50,882 nt of DNA from contig JAKSIU010000017.1 in NCBI GenBank assembly GCA_024398615.1, forward strand, positions 1-50,882, written 5' to 3'. Positions within the stretch are counted from its first letter, which is position 1, and each line of letters starts with the position of its first letter. Source of the DNA: Bacteroidaceae bacterium (GTDB lineage Bacteria; Bacteroidota; Bacteroidia; Bacteroidales; Bacteroidaceae). The position numbers were made by a program, and so were the translations under genes. A model generated the notes under the pieces. It saw nothing but the letters and a program-made list of their open reading frames with translations. It had not been told where the DNA came from and did not search any database. Positions 2,791-12,837 of this stretch are shown piece by piece.

Positions 2791-4860
2791 TTGAGGAGAA
2801 CGTATAACATATTGTTTCTGGCGCTTGCCTTCTGTCTGTCAGCCACTTCTTCCTTTGCCCATGTCATTGGGGAGGATGAGGCCAGACTGATTGCAGCCGG
2901 TTTTTTCAACAATGGTTCCAATCAGGGGGAATATGCGGTCCAGAGTCGTGACAAAGGAATGGAACTGGAACTGGCCGATGAACCCGATGGGAAAATTTAC
3001 GTCTTCAACAGGGAAGACGGCCAAGGCTGGGTGATAGTGTCAGGGGAAAGCCAGGGACCCGAGATTCTGGCATACTCTTACCATGGATCGTTCAATCCCG
3101 ACCCGCGCATGGCGTCATCGGTCTTTCTGGAATCATACCGTTCTGCGATTGACAGCATTAGATGTGGTGTCTTTGATGGCGTGCCTGACACTAAGGCGGG
3201 TATCGGCTGGTCAAAATGCCTTGAAACTGCCAAATTCAATCAGAACGGAGACAGTTTCAATACTTCTGTTGCCCCTAAAGTTTTCGGTCGTCCCTGCATG
3301 GCTGGTTGTACGGCAACAGCTATGGCAATTATCATGAAGTACTATGAATGGCCGGAAAGTAATACCGGAAGTTTCAGTTACACGACAACGACAAGAAAAC
3401 TTCATCAGGAGTATGATTTTGCGGCAAATCCGTTTCGGTGGAAGGAGATGGAAAATGTGCCATCAACCTTGTCAAGCGCTGCAGTATCAGAACTTATAAG
3501 GGCTTGTGGCGTGTCTGTGGCTATGGATTATGATAATGATGTAAGTTCTGCATATCTGACTACCGTCCAGTATGCATTACGTCACTATTTTCATTATGAT
3601 TATGCCATGTATCTGTATCGTGAGCTCTATGATACGGAGGACTGGAATGCAATTCTTCGTGTCGAAATTGCTGCTGATCGGCCCGTTGCCGTTTTAGGTG
3701 GTGGTTCAAGGGGATGGCATACGTTTGTGCTTGACGGTTATGATGACCGTGGGCTGTTTCACTACAATCTTGGCTGGGGAGGGTCCAATGACGGATTCTA
3801 TTCAGACGGGATGATTTCGCCTGATCATTACTCGGTGTCAAACGCTCTGGTAGGAATCAAACCGGGCAGGATGGATGTTGAGGATTTTGCTTCTCCATTT
3901 CTCTATAACCGGATTTATACCACAGTCGATGGAAATCTTGCTCCAGGATACGTGTTTGATGTTGATGTTTTCAATCTGACTAATATGTCGAATCAGGATT
4001 TTGAAGGAAGCATCAGGGTGGATGTCTATTCATCGGACAACAAGTATCGTTTTACAGTGCATCCGGGTTATTCAGCAGGCCCATGTCCGCCCGGATCATT
4101 TTGGAAACAATTTCCCCTGGAATATTGTCAGATTGATCCGATGAACAGAATACAGCCGTCAGACAGGATTGCAATCAGTACATCGGCCGATGGTGAAAAG
4201 ACATGGCAGCCGGTGTACAGCAGCTCATCGCTTTTTCATGACATTCCAGTATCCGGATACGGTACGGATGCCATTCTGTATTCACAACTGTCATTTTATG
4301 GAAATGATCAGTGCATCAGCGTGAGCGGACAGGTTGGGTTCAGTCCTTTTTACACGAATACATCGGCAATTATTAATTTTTCGAGGACAACAGCTTTCAG
4401 CGGAACTTTGGATCTGATGGTGTGCGATACTCTGGACTGGTCGATAGTGGACAGGCTGTCTACAAACAAATTTGATCATGTCGGTTATTCCAATGGCATA
4501 TATGGAAAGTTTGGAAGGGTGTCAATAGCCAAGGATATTGTTCTGAAACCGACATATGCGATAGCTGTCTATTCAAAACTGTCCGGAATGTCCGAACATG
4601 CACTTGTTTGTTCCTCTTCCCGAGACCCCATATATATCAGGCTTGAGGATTTCATAGACATTCCCAATACGGTTGATGCACCTCCAAACGGGTATCTTTC
4701 CGGTTTGGCACGGATTTATTCTCTTGATGGCAAGGCGGCTGGTTCATTTGAGGTAAAAGAACCGGGTGTTGTGCCGGAAAGGGCTGTTCAAAGTCTTGAA
4801 TCGGGAATATGGCTTGTCAAATTTCCGGGAGGTGAGGCTCATCTGATTTCAATTGAATAA
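2791..4860 (+). CDS. C10-family (streptopain-like) secreted cysteine protease
   Basis: 689 residues with a signal peptide (about 1-23), a Spi/propeptide-like segment (about 24-140) and a C10 catalytic domain. The nucleophile is predicted as Cys173 in GCTATAMAII and the general base as His310 in GWHTFVLDGYD, followed by the conserved NLGWGGSNDGFY. The C-terminal half (about 350-630) has beta-rich repeats, and the last 50 residues (IYSLDGKAAG ... GIWLVKFPGG) resemble a type IX secretion sorting domain, in line with the por genes at 42-49 kb. Only a TTG start fits; no ATG or GTG precedes the signal peptide. The cupin gene begins 14 bases downstream, probably co-transcribed. Confidence 0.88.
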   Translation: MRRTYNILFLALAFCLSATSSFAHVIGEDEARLIAAGFFNNGSNQGEYAVQSRDKGMELELADEPDGKIYVFNREDGQGWVIVSGESQGPEILAYSYHGSFNPDPRMASSVFLESYRSAIDSIRCGVFDGVPDTKAGIGWSKCLETAKFNQNGDSFNTSVAPKVFGRPCMAGCTATAMAIIMKYYEWPESNTGSFSYTTTTRKLHQEYDFAANPFRWKEMENVPSTLSSAAVSELIRACGVSVAMDYDNDVSSAYLTTVQYALRHYFHYDYAMYLYRELYDTEDWNAILRVEIAADRPVAVLGGGSRGWHTFVLDGYDDRGLFHYNLGWGGSNDGFYSDGMISPDHYSVSNALVGIKPGRMDVEDFASPFLYNRIYTTVDGNLAPGYVFDVDVFNLTNMSNQDFEGSIRVDVYSSDNKYRFTVHPGYSAGPCPPGSFWKQFPLEYCQIDPMNRIQPSDRIAISTSADGEKTWQPVYSSSSLFHDIPVSGYGTDAILYSQLSFYGNDQCISVSGQVGFSPFYTNTSAIINFSRTTAFSGTLDLMVCDTLDWSIVDRLSTNKFDHVGYSNGIYGKFGRVSIAKDIVLKPTYAIAVYSKLSGMSEHALVCSSSRDPIYIRLEDFIDIPNTVDAPPNGYLSGLARIYSLDGKAAGSFEVKEPGVVPERAVQSLESGIWLVKFPGGEAHLISIE

Positions 4861-6553: not shown

Positions 6554-7726
6554 ATGAAAAAGGTATTTGTAAGCGGATGTTATGACCTGCTGCACAGCGG
6601 GCATGTGGAGTTTTTCCGTCAGGCTTCACAGTATGGTGAACTGTATGTCGGAATAGGATCCGATGCCACCATCCTGGAACTGAAGCATCATCATACGGTA
6701 TATAGTGAGCAGGAACGTCTGTTCATGGTACAGAGCATCAGGTACGTAAAACAGGCTTTCATAAATCGGGGGAGCGGAATCCTTGATTTCGTTCCGACGT
6801 TGGATATTGTGCAGCCGGACATTCTTCTGGTCAATTCCGATGGTTCGTCACCGCTCAAGGAGCAGCTGTGCCGCGAACGCGGGATGGAGTACGTCGTACT
6901 GGACCGCGTGCCGCAGACCGGACTTGAGGCCCGTTCCTCAACCAGTCTGAAGCAGACGCCATGTCAGTTGCCGACCCGTCTTGACCTGGCGGGAACATGG
7001 ATAGACCAGCCATATGTGAGCCAGTATGCTCCGGGCTGGGCCATTACCATAAGTCTTGAACCGACTTTTGAAATTCGCGAGCGTTGTGGGCTTTCAACCT
7101 CTACCCGTAATATCATCAAGCGTATCTGGCCGTATCAGCTTCCGAATATGGACCCTGAGACTCTTGCCCGCCTGGTGTTCTGTTTCGAGAATCATCCCGA
7201 GCGTGAGGACGGTATCGTGAGCGGTGCTCAGGATGCCATAGGAATTTGTGTTCCGGGACTGTGCCGTCACTGGTATGACAATCATTTCTGGCCGTCAAGG
7301 ATAGAGACATGTCAGGACCCTGTCATTCTGGAGTGGCTGGAGCAGCACCTTGTGATGATTCCCATGGATCCACGTCCTGCAGGTTGCAGTGTGGTGACAG
7401 GCAAGGACATCACCCCAGTCAAGGTCCGTGCTTTGGCCGATGCTGCCGAACGTTGCTGGAAAGCCATTATGGAACGTGATCTGACCGCTTTTGCCAGTTC
7501 ATATCTTGATTCATTCCATGCACAGACTGCCATGTTCCCTGCAATGATACAGGGAAGTGTGCAGTCATATATTGACAGGTACAGTGTTATGGAACAGGTG
7601 CTGGCATGGAAAATGCCGGGAGCCGGAGCCGGTGGGTATCTGGCACTGGTAGTATCCGATGCTGCTGGGTTTGCAGCTGCCGACACCCAGGCAATCCGGC
7701 TTACAATCCGTCGTGGAGGGTTATGA
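6554..7726 (+). CDS. Fused cytidylyltransferase-like and GHMP kinase-like enzyme
   Basis: 390 residues in two parts. Residues 1-135 are a nucleotidyltransferase of the glycerol-3-phosphate cytidylyltransferase type, with the HxGH motif at 14-17 (HSGH) and a RSSTSL motif at 127-132. Residues 140-390 resemble GHMP sugar kinases: RLDLAGTWIDQP (142-153), a degenerate phosphate loop GLSTST (179-184), SGAQDAIG (223-230) and the glycine-rich motif PGAGAGGYL (355-363) seen in heptose and fucose kinases. The likely role is phosphorylation then nucleotide activation of a sugar. The order is the reverse of HldE, whose kinase comes first and is of the unrelated PfkB type. The kinase loop lacks its usual proline, so activity is not assured. 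The last 6 bases overlap the opposing lipoprotein gene. Confidence 0.78.
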   Translation: MKKVFVSGCYDLLHSGHVEFFRQASQYGELYVGIGSDATILELKHHHTVYSEQERLFMVQSIRYVKQAFINRGSGILDFVPTLDIVQPDILLVNSDGSSPLKEQLCRERGMEYVVLDRVPQTGLEARSSTSLKQTPCQLPTRLDLAGTWIDQPYVSQYAPGWAITISLEPTFEIRERCGLSTSTRNIIKRIWPYQLPNMDPETLARLVFCFENHPEREDGIVSGAQDAIGICVPGLCRHWYDNHFWPSRIETCQDPVILEWLEQHLVMIPMDPRPAGCSVVTGKDITPVKVRALADAAERCWKAIMERDLTAFASSYLDSFHAQTAMFPAMIQGSVQSYIDRYSVMEQVLAWKMPGAGAGGYLALVVSDAAGFAAADTQAIRLTIRRGGL

Positions 7727-10460: not shown

Positions 10461-10502
10461 TTGTCAAGTTCTTGTCATGTTTTCAAAATATTGAGGAAAT
10501 AA

Positions 10503-10520
10503 ATTGCCAAGCTTGACAAT
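10503..10520. promoter_or_regulatory. Candidate operator palindrome in the gmd promoter
   Basis: ATTGCCAAGCTTGACAAT is an 18-bp near-perfect palindrome (one mismatched pair). It fills the spacer between the -33 TTG (10504-10506) and the -7 box (10527-10535). Its 14-bp core, TGCCAA-GC-TTGACA, has the size expected for a Cro/C1-type dimer site. Extra half-sites TTGTCA occur 11 bases apart at 10461 and 10472. Autoregulation by the HTH domain of the gene itself is an inference. Confidence 0.5.
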
Positions 10521-10535
10521 ATTGCCGAACTTTGC
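10504..10535 (+). promoter_or_regulatory. Promoter of the HTH-gmd gene
   Basis: TTG at 10504-10506, a 20-base spacer and GAACTTTGC at 10527-10535 (one mismatch to TAnnTTTGC). The expected transcription start is near 10541, followed by a short leader ending TAAGGT before the ATG at 10553. Confidence 0.5.
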
Positions 10536-10552: not shown

Positions 10553-11896
10553 ATGAAAGATTCTGCAATTATCGAAAATCTCAAGCAGATAATGTCCCAA
10601 AGGGGAATTTCCCAGCGTGATCTGGCTAAAATGCTTGACAAGGACGAGACGGCTGTCAGCCGTTGGTTTAATGGTAAAGTAGGCATAAGTGAAGCGAGTT
10701 TGGCTCAAATCGAGTCTGTACTTGCTGTCAAACTTGACAAAAAGAGCGCTTCGTCAAAGACTAAAGTGGCTCTGATTTCGGGTATTACAGGTCAGGATGG
10801 AAGCTTCCTTGCCGAGTTCCTGCTTGAGAAGGGATATGAGGTCCACGGAATAATGCGCCGCAGTTCCAGTTTCAATACCGGTCGTATAGAGCATCTGTAT
10901 CTTGACGAGTGGGTACGTGACATGAAACGCAAGCGTACCATCAATCTTCATTACGGAGATATGACCGACTCGTCCAGTCTGGTCAGGATAATCCAGATGG
11001 TCCAACCCGATGAGATATACAATCTGGCGGCGCAGAGTCACGTGAAGGTGTCTTTTGATTGTCCTGAATATACAGCCGAAGCCGATGCGGTTGGTACGCT
11101 TCGACTTCTTGAGGCTGTCCGTATTCTCGGAATGGAGAAGAAGACAAGAATCTACCAGGCATCGACTTCTGAACTGTTCGGCAAGGTGCAGGAGGTTCCG
11201 CAGAAGGAAACCACACCGTTCTATCCGCGCAGTCCGTACGGAGTGGCAAAGCAGTACGCCTTCTGGATATGTAAGAATTACCGTGAGGCATACGGCATGT
11301 ATGCAGTGAATGGAATACTTTTCAATCATGAGAGCGAACGCCGCGGTGAGACATTCGTAACGCGAAAGATTACAATAGCTGCATCGCGCATTGCACAGGG
11401 TCTTCAGGACAAACTGTATCTTGGTAATCTCAACGCACTGCGTGACTGGGGTTACGCGAAGGATTACGTAGAGTGCATGTGGCTCATAATGCAGCAGGAC
11501 AAGCCCGATGACTTTGTGATTGCGACCGGCGAATACCATACCGTCCGTGAATTTGCAGGACTGGCGTTTGCTGAAATCGGAATCAGGATAGGATGGGAAG
11601 GCCAGGGGGTAAACGAGAAGGGCGTATGCGTCGGCATTGATGCCGATGCCGCCCGTAAGGCAGGCGTTCTCAACGCGAAATCGCTTATCGGAAAGACACT
11701 GGTGGAGGTCGATCCGAAATATTTCCGTCCATCGGAAGTCGAACAGCTTCTTGGCGATCCGACTAAGGCACGTACCGTCCTTGGCTGGAATCCGCAGAAG
11801 ACATCGTTCAATGAACTGGTTGGAATAATGATGCGTCATGATATGAGATTCGTGCGCAAACTCAAGGTGAAATCCGATATTGACAGTCTGGAATGA
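10553..11896 (+). CDS. gmd: GDP-mannose 4,6-dehydratase with N-terminal XRE helix-turn-helix domain
   Basis: 447 residues; ordinary Gmd is about 350-380. Residues 5-62 are a Cro/C1-type [23 protein letters not shown], then FNGK and a further helix, followed by a short Lys/Ser linker (63-70). Residues 71-447 are a full Gmd: NADP loop GITGQDG (77-83), predicted catalytic Thr205, Glu207, Tyr229 and Lys233 (STSEL, SPYGVAK), and [11 protein letters not shown]. It converts GDP-mannose to GDP-4-keto-6-deoxymannose, the substrate of Fcl encoded next with a 3-base overlap. The frame is open throughout and no ATG lies between the two parts (only a GTG at Val72), so the HTH must be translated with the enzyme. 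Its own promoter contains a palindrome, suggesting self-regulation. Confidence 0.92.
10726..10739. promoter_or_regulatory. Second palindrome of the same design inside gmd
   Basis: TGTCAA-AC-TTGACA is a perfect 6-bp inverted repeat with a 2-bp centre, the same layout as the promoter core at 10505-10518. It sits in the DNA encoding the end of the HTH domain. It may be a second binding site or a coincidence of coding sequence. Confidence 0.3.
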
Positions 11897-12837
11897 TGGA
11901 AAAGACATCGAAGATTTTTGTTGCAGGGCACCGCGGAATGGTAGGCAGTGCCATAGTACGTGAACTTCAGCGTCAGGGCTATGGGAATATTGTAACCCGT
12001 ACGCACAAGGAACTTGATCTGACCTGCCAGGCGGCTGTTAATGATTTCTTTGCAACGGAAAAGCCGGAATATGTTTTCATGCCGGCCGGCAAGGTGGGTG
12101 GAATAGTGGCGAACCGCAATGATAAGGCAGGTTTTCTTTATGAAAACGAAATGATGGCACTCAATACCATACATGCCGCATGGGTGAATGGTGTCAGGAA
12201 GTTCGAGTATCTTGGGTCATCATGCATCTATCCACGTATGGCTGAACAGCCCATGACCGAGGACTGCCTTCTGACCAGTGCGCTTGAGGAAACGAATGAA
12301 GGTTACGCTCTTGCCAAGATAAGCGGTCTCAAGTATTGTGAATATCTGAACCGCCAGTATGGTGTACCCTACATCTCGCTCATGCCGACGAACCTGTATG
12401 GTCCGAATGACAATTACCATCCGGAGCACAGTCATGTATTGCCGGCTCTGATACGTCGCTTCCATGAGGCCAAGGAAGCAGGTCTTGAGTCAGTTACCTG
12501 TTGGGGTGACGGTTCTCCGTTGCGTGAATTCCTTTATGTTGACGATCTGGCCAATCTTTGCGTATTCCTCATGAACAGCTATGATGGCGCTGAGACCGTT
12601 AATGCAGGTACAGGCAAAGAACTGACAATAAAGGAGCTGACGGAGATGGTTGCCCGTGTCATCGGCTATGAGGGAAGGATAGAGTGGGACACTTCCCGTC
12701 CGAACGGGACTCCCCGGAAACTGCTTGATGTAAGCAAGGCGGCCGGACTGGGATGGACGTATAGGACTGAACTTGAAGACGGAATCCGTCTTGCCTATCA
12801 GGATTTCCTGAATAATCCTATCAGGGCCGAGAGATAA
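11893..12837 (+). CDS. fcl: GDP-L-fucose synthase
   Basis: 314 residues, the length of WcaG/Fcl. The NADP loop is [11 protein letters not shown] (11-21); the SDR catalytic residues are Ser110 (SSCIYP), Tyr138 and Lys142 ([10 protein letters not shown]); [19 protein letters not shown] is the family signature. It carries out the 3,5-epimerisation and 4-reduction of the Gmd product to GDP-L-fucose. It overlaps the gmd stop (two ATGs, 11893 and 11896; either may be used), so the pair is translationally coupled. GDP-fucose would feed capsule, O-antigen or protein O-glycosylation, all common in Bacteroidales. Confidence 0.95.

Follow-up and report, generated by a model that had tools for sequence, protein, structure and literature searches.

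The window analysed here, a stretch of 50,882 nucleotides from a Bacteroidaceae genome, encodes a GDP-mannose 4,6-dehydratase (Gmd) with a helix-turn-helix (HTH) of the XRE type at its N-terminus, and this raises the question of whether an enzyme of sugar-nucleotide synthesis may also regulate the gene that encodes it. That both domains are read in one frame, as the first-pass annotation had proposed, was confirmed: the frame is free of stops, Pfam recognizes HTH_3 at residues 10-62 (39.7 bits against a cut-off of 23, E 5e-10) and GDP_Man_Dehyd at residues 74-426 (E 6e-147), and the fusion passes the NCBIfam gmd equivalog model TIGR01472 with 567.5 bits, the curated cut-off being 415. In the alignment to E. 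coli Gmd (1db3), the NADP loop is intact and T205, E207, Y229 and K233 occupy the positions of T132, E134, Y156 and K160, which we take to be the catalytic residues of the E. coli enzyme; all four are kept. The absence of an ATG between the domains was also correctly described, the linker being devoid of Met and the codon of Val72 being GTG. The AlphaFold2 model shows an XRE-like four-helix head joined loosely by the linker to the Gmd part (mean pLDDT 74.6, with several Gmd stretches below 50). We infer from the sequence that the fusion has kept GDP-mannose 4,6-dehydratase activity; its draft genome (81.7% complete) holds no other strong match to Gmd, two further matches reaching 36.5 bits at most. 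Stand-alone Gmd enzymes, such as those of E. coli, human (GMDS) and Brucella (7kf3), agree with the fusion in having a catalytic domain of full length with these residues but have no DNA-binding head, and their solved chains measure 335-381 aa. The ATG of the downstream fcl gene overlaps the HTH-gmd stop (4-nt overlap), so that both enzymes of the route from GDP-mannose to GDP-fucose are encoded side by side; the fcl product scores 454 bits against GDPFucSynFcl, under the cut-off of 500 of that NCBIfam model.

Table 1. Positions of the fusion gene, its parts and its predicted upstream elements in the window, and of related fusions at other loci.
Feature	Position	Strand	Basis or context
Distal site TTGTCAAGTT	10461..10470	+	Upstream site search
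90% copy of the distal site, TTGTCATGTT	10472-10481		Follows TTGTCAAGTT
Near-palindrome ATTGCCAAGCTTGACAAT, proposed proximal operator	10503..10520	.	Upstream site search
Putative -7 box GAACTTTG	10527..10534	+	One base off TAnnTTTG
HTH-Gmd fusion gene, 447 aa	10553..11896	+	Single stop-free frame
XRE-type helix-turn-helix, residues 1-62	10553..10738	+	Pfam HTH_3; AlphaFold2 helices
Lys/Ser linker, residues 63-70 (about ten residues)	10739..10762	+	Low pLDDT at 65-68; comparison of linker lengths across the 25 fusions
Complete GDP-mannose 4,6-dehydratase, residues 71-447	10763..11896	+	Pfam, NCBIfam, alignment to 1db3
fcl, GDP-L-fucose synthase, next gene	11893..12837	+	NCBIfam GDPFucSynFcl; Epimerase domain
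HTH-cytidylyltransferase fusions	L115 12040-12978; L116 10497-11453		GTTAAG upstream
HTH-Gfo/Idh/MocA fusion	L113 4626-5789		Downstream of exonuclease VII large-subunit gene

The search for the same architecture in other genomes, which the first-pass annotation had suggested, revealed that it recurs in four genera of the family (g1, g11, g13 and g22). With an HTH profile, HTH-Gmd was detected in at least 22 of the 399 sampled genomes, a lower bound set by matches at E 1e-7 or better and at most 15 candidates scored per genome, and Gmd itself is present in 305 of them. Together with the genome G016 and two contigs (L033 and L034) of the public MAGs RUG470 and RGIG8007, at least 25 distinct HTH-Gmd genes are available, the window's included; among the 80 best relatives from public genome contigs, two carry the window's HTH. 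In 23 of the 25 loci fcl follows HTH-gmd on the same strand, the other two being cut by contig ends; in L222 and L240 the contig ends fall within Gmd. At the order level, no second HTH-Gmd appeared in 393 genomes (at most 16 candidates scored per genome), and the other HTH frames listed do not exceed 261 aa, the content of the 256- and 261-aa frames being left aside; at the phylum level (345 genomes, 214 of them with Gmd), only the window's protein aligns before residue 31 among the matches listed. The first-pass annotation knew of no described DNA-binding Gmd; at least 25 distinct genes are present in the genomes. In the literature, neither an HTH-Gmd nor a sugar-nucleotide trigger enzyme was found in titles and abstract openings, subscription papers being thinly covered. 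The loci stem from draft genomes or MAGs, and an assembly or annotation error might in principle have joined an HTH gene to gmd; against this stand the constraint on the HTH and the recurrence of the fusion, in frame, as 25 distinct genes from separate assemblies, the two public MAGs among them. This recurrence rules out an assembly artefact, and artefactual joining of either kind has practically no probability left.

Concerning the origin of the fusions, a quick tree of 139 Gmds, in which the unfused gmd of the second subfamily are undersampled, places the fused genes in two Gmd subfamilies and requires five changes of the fused label, four of them forced by well-supported branches. A Met directly before the Gmd part is kept in eight of the 25 fused genes (the window's has none), as if the HTH had been placed ahead of a whole gmd. 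A separate HTH gene beside an unfused gmd was considered as the ancestral state and rejected, as none was detected with this HTH profile in 14 unfused loci (L244-L257). Other long HTH frames (L241-L243) are not sugar enzymes by eye; two of them resemble an HTH with a metallopeptidase-like part.

The HTH part shows dN/dS values of 0.03-0.15 in nine of 12 pairs, the other three being saturated, and because of these values and the four-helix head in the AlphaFold2 model (helices at residues 4-17, 21-28, 32-39 and 47-57) it is judged to be translated and under purifying selection. A translation start at the GTG of Val72, with an HTH that is untranslated or not conserved among relatives, had been named as an objection to the fusion, next to an HTH gene broken into the frame by an assembly error; both can be ruled out, the HTH being conserved in frame across four genera and constrained. 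The third helix (residues 32-39, ETAVSRWF) is taken as the recognition helix on the basis of the model. Among the nearest solved structures of the HTH model are C.BclI, C.AhdI and C.Esp1396I, controller (C) proteins, with no Foldseek E below 0.001; the best E is only 3e-3, but the TM score to C.BclI is 0.75. Capture from a small regulator of the HigA type, as proposed in the first-pass annotation, is favored by the nearest unfused HTHs seen, which are frames of about 100 aa, and by solved relatives that include HigA chains and 3omt (titled as a putative Xre antitoxin component); nevertheless, C proteins of restriction-modification systems are about as near, and this part of the proposal is only partly supported. 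HigA-type antitoxins have an HTH related to the HTH-Gmd head, whereas the neighbors of HTH-gmd in the window are an aminotransferase gene and fcl, and no toxin family was recognized by Pfam among the adjoining genes.

If the head binds DNA, matching sites would be expected ahead of the fused genes. For this comparison the fusions were divided by their first protein letters into type 2 (MTR or MLR) and type 1, with three non-Gmd fusions excluded. The hexamer GTCAAG/CTTGAC occurs within 160 nt upstream of all 19 type-1 fusions (expectation 0.00-0.13 per upstream stretch; L234 was kept with 136 nt), 14 of which have two or more copies, versus nine of 113 unfused gmd, none with two (L255, one of 114 unfused genes, was dropped with 102 nt). 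In an open count of 6-mers, CTTGAC ranks first among type-1 fusions, with 19/19 against 0.96 expected. These counts are not independent because the fusions are related; grouped by eye into about eight clusters, the comparison of eight with 113 unfused genes still gives a Fisher p of 3e-8. Spacing is also regular when sites are written as G[TC][CT]AAG and the -7 pattern includes a variant added for the window: neighboring sites are 30-33 bp apart in 17 of the 19, and the nearer site lies 20-23 bp ahead of a -7-like box in 17 of the 19, L034 and L224 failing this promoter-distance check. The -7 consensus of Bacteroidetes is TAnnTTTG. A point against the operator reading is that TTGAC resembles the sigma-70 -35 box, which is not known to be the Bacteroidetes consensus. 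By eye, the site is often the right arm of a dyad, with TTGACA-N7-TGTCAAG as the clearest form. Among the matches listed for 13 genomes, the exact dyad is found ahead of HTH-gmd in five (G020, G057, G251, G263 and G174), where no further exact match is listed, and not in the other eight; the two exact matches listed for G094 and G112 are inside predicted genes, and in six genomes none is listed anywhere, G142 being without any listed match. Copies with one mismatch are common, several to tens per genome and 27 places in G020, so only exact matches discriminate.

The layout in the window is looser than in its relatives, with sites 43 bp apart and no exact TTGACA-N7-TGTCAAG. The near-palindrome ATTGCCAAGCTTGACAAT covers the TTG (10504-10506) of a putative -33 element, and the putative -7 box was admitted by widening the search pattern. 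The 16-mer TTGNCAAGNTTGNCAA has three other exact places in the window's genome, all inside predicted genes, and its pattern with one mismatch occurs 44 times on both strands, compared with six for a control pattern. BLAST of the promoter DNA against 37 genomes of the genus gave no match with an E below 0.005 outside the window. The word CTTGACAA is present twice more inside the HTH coding sequence (10634-10641 and 10733-10740), either as extra sites or by chance.

The sites also follow the HTH type. The recognition helix begins with [DSN]ET[AVC] where the site is GTCAAG (19/19) and with KE[TS]E where it is GTTAAG (2/2), the latter in fusions of the same HTH to an IspD-like cytidylyltransferase in two genomes (G019 and G021), with an MFS transporter gene following it and, nearby, LicD as recognized by Pfam in G019 or a frame that resembles LicD by eye in G021. 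The six type-2 fusions (L235-L240), in which linkers of 19-45 residues connect Gmd to an HTH of the second type, have no GTCAAG/CTTGAC upstream (0/6); five of the six have ATTTTGTA there, versus 0.21 expected in all, although this candidate word was picked by eye and is part of a possible -7 box in two of them. The HTH of the window's type also heads a Gfo/Idh/MocA oxidoreductase in one genome (G016), which also has an HTH-Gmd; no upstream site was found at this locus. The fusion, its conservation, the sites, where they lie and how they pair with the HTH type are features read from sequence, and the idea that the enzyme is a likely regulator of its own gene, advanced from the window alone, gains support from the comparison, where the predicted upstream sites are present and go with the HTH type. 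The same covariation bears on two other explanations. The head could be a structural or oligomerizing appendage that has lost DNA binding; the structures that Foldseek matched to the HTH model include chains of the epoxidase HppE, whose HTH may no longer bind DNA, and in all eight pairs with both values dN/dS is higher for the HTH than for Gmd, which denotes weaker constraint. An appendage would not be expected to go with sites that match its type at a regular promoter position, and we regard this explanation as improbable. Alternatively, the sites could serve a regulator of the gmd operon that is free of the enzyme, the head being present by chance: free HTHs of the same kind, of about 100 aa, exist in many of these genomes; however, unfused gmd of g1, g13 and g22 mostly have no site (GTCAAG/CTTGAC in 1/10), and the site changes with the fused HTH, which makes this very hard to believe.

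The reading that we consider best, and probably correct, is that of an active Gmd acting in addition as the repressor of the gmd-fcl operon to which it belongs. With matching DNA sites ahead of its gene, the enzyme probably sets its own level of production; DNA binding, oligomerization and repression rather than activation are what we infer from this arrangement. The Gmd part would oligomerize and present the N-terminal heads in pairs, and these would bind TTGAC/GTCAA sites at two upstream places; with the nearer site at the -33 promoter element, bound heads would block RNA polymerase, so that the enzyme opening the route from GDP-mannose to GDP-fucose would be under simple negative feedback. 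The protein might instead activate the operon, or activate and repress it from two sites, as restriction-modification C proteins do. The C proteins among the nearest solved structures, the weak Foldseek E values notwithstanding, agree with activation, as do the distal site well upstream of the promoter and a C protein-endonuclease fusion active in both functions (PMC3850674); the nearer site, placed at the -33 element itself, favors occlusion, and activation is accordingly an unlikely, though not negligible, alternative. In the self-repression reading, a pathway ligand, either the end product GDP-fucose or the substrate GDP-mannose, may shift DNA binding; the first-pass annotation had named NADP(H) beside these two as a ligand that the catalytic domain might sense. 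Such ligand control is plausible because human GMDS binds a GDP-fucose-based inhibitor, with which it was solved (5in4, title); an allosteric site is mentioned in PMC8640046.

A broader scheme, which we put forward tentatively and hold to be somewhat short of an even chance, is that of a transferable XRE cassette, fused several times to sugar or sugar-nucleotide enzymes (two Gmd subfamilies, the IspD-like cytidylyltransferase and the Gfo/Idh oxidoreductase), which would become self-repressing and ligand-gated, the operator changing with the cassette. A Gmd tetramer would place its HTHs, as two pairs, on two operators separated by three helical turns, and how tightly it held them would depend on GDP-fucose.

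PutA, NadR and BirA are trigger enzymes, in which one chain is both an enzyme and the regulator of its own pathway. As judged by its reading frame, HTH-Gmd likewise unites an enzyme and a DNA-binding domain in one translated chain; it differs from them in DNA-binding fold and pathway, and ligand control is known for PutA, NadR and BirA. To our knowledge, no sugar-nucleotide enzyme has been counted among DNA-binding metabolic enzymes. The precedent that comes closest is CR.NsoJS138I of Niabella soli, a C protein-endonuclease fusion whose controller protein is of the XRE type. Experiments showed it to be an enzyme as well as a regulator, and the likeness lies in the union of a controller protein with an enzyme, in a chain that governs its own promoter; CR.NsoJS138I is, however, a nuclease rather than a metabolic enzyme and works through an activator loop, with no metabolite sensing described in the abstract or the Discussion (PMC3850674). 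HTH-Gmd would represent a feedback loop made of a single protein and its predicted operator and, if ligand-gated, a natural GDP-sugar sensor; the joint change of the HTH head and the DNA sites ahead of it across several enzymes is an experiment of nature on the evolution of regulation. The life of gut Bacteroidales with their host depends centrally on the fucose of surface glycans, and the control of their de novo GDP-fucose supply is, as far as we know, little described.

Fkp is the known fucose salvage enzyme. Among 28 draft genomes, 23 lack it (PF07959), including that of the window, so feedback by GDP-fucose through the salvage route is unsupported. Positions 6554-7726 of the window encode a protein of 390 aa that begins with a nucleotidyltransferase part resembling RfaE-II; its relative in G020 (L117 9011-11406) weakly matches Fkp at the kinase end, with FucP and HTH-gmd next in this order, and a possible role in an unusual fucose salvage in genomes without Fkp can be considered. 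Upstream of the sugar genes, the window also contains a peptidase C10 with a Spi-type inhibitor domain (2959-4860; Pfam).
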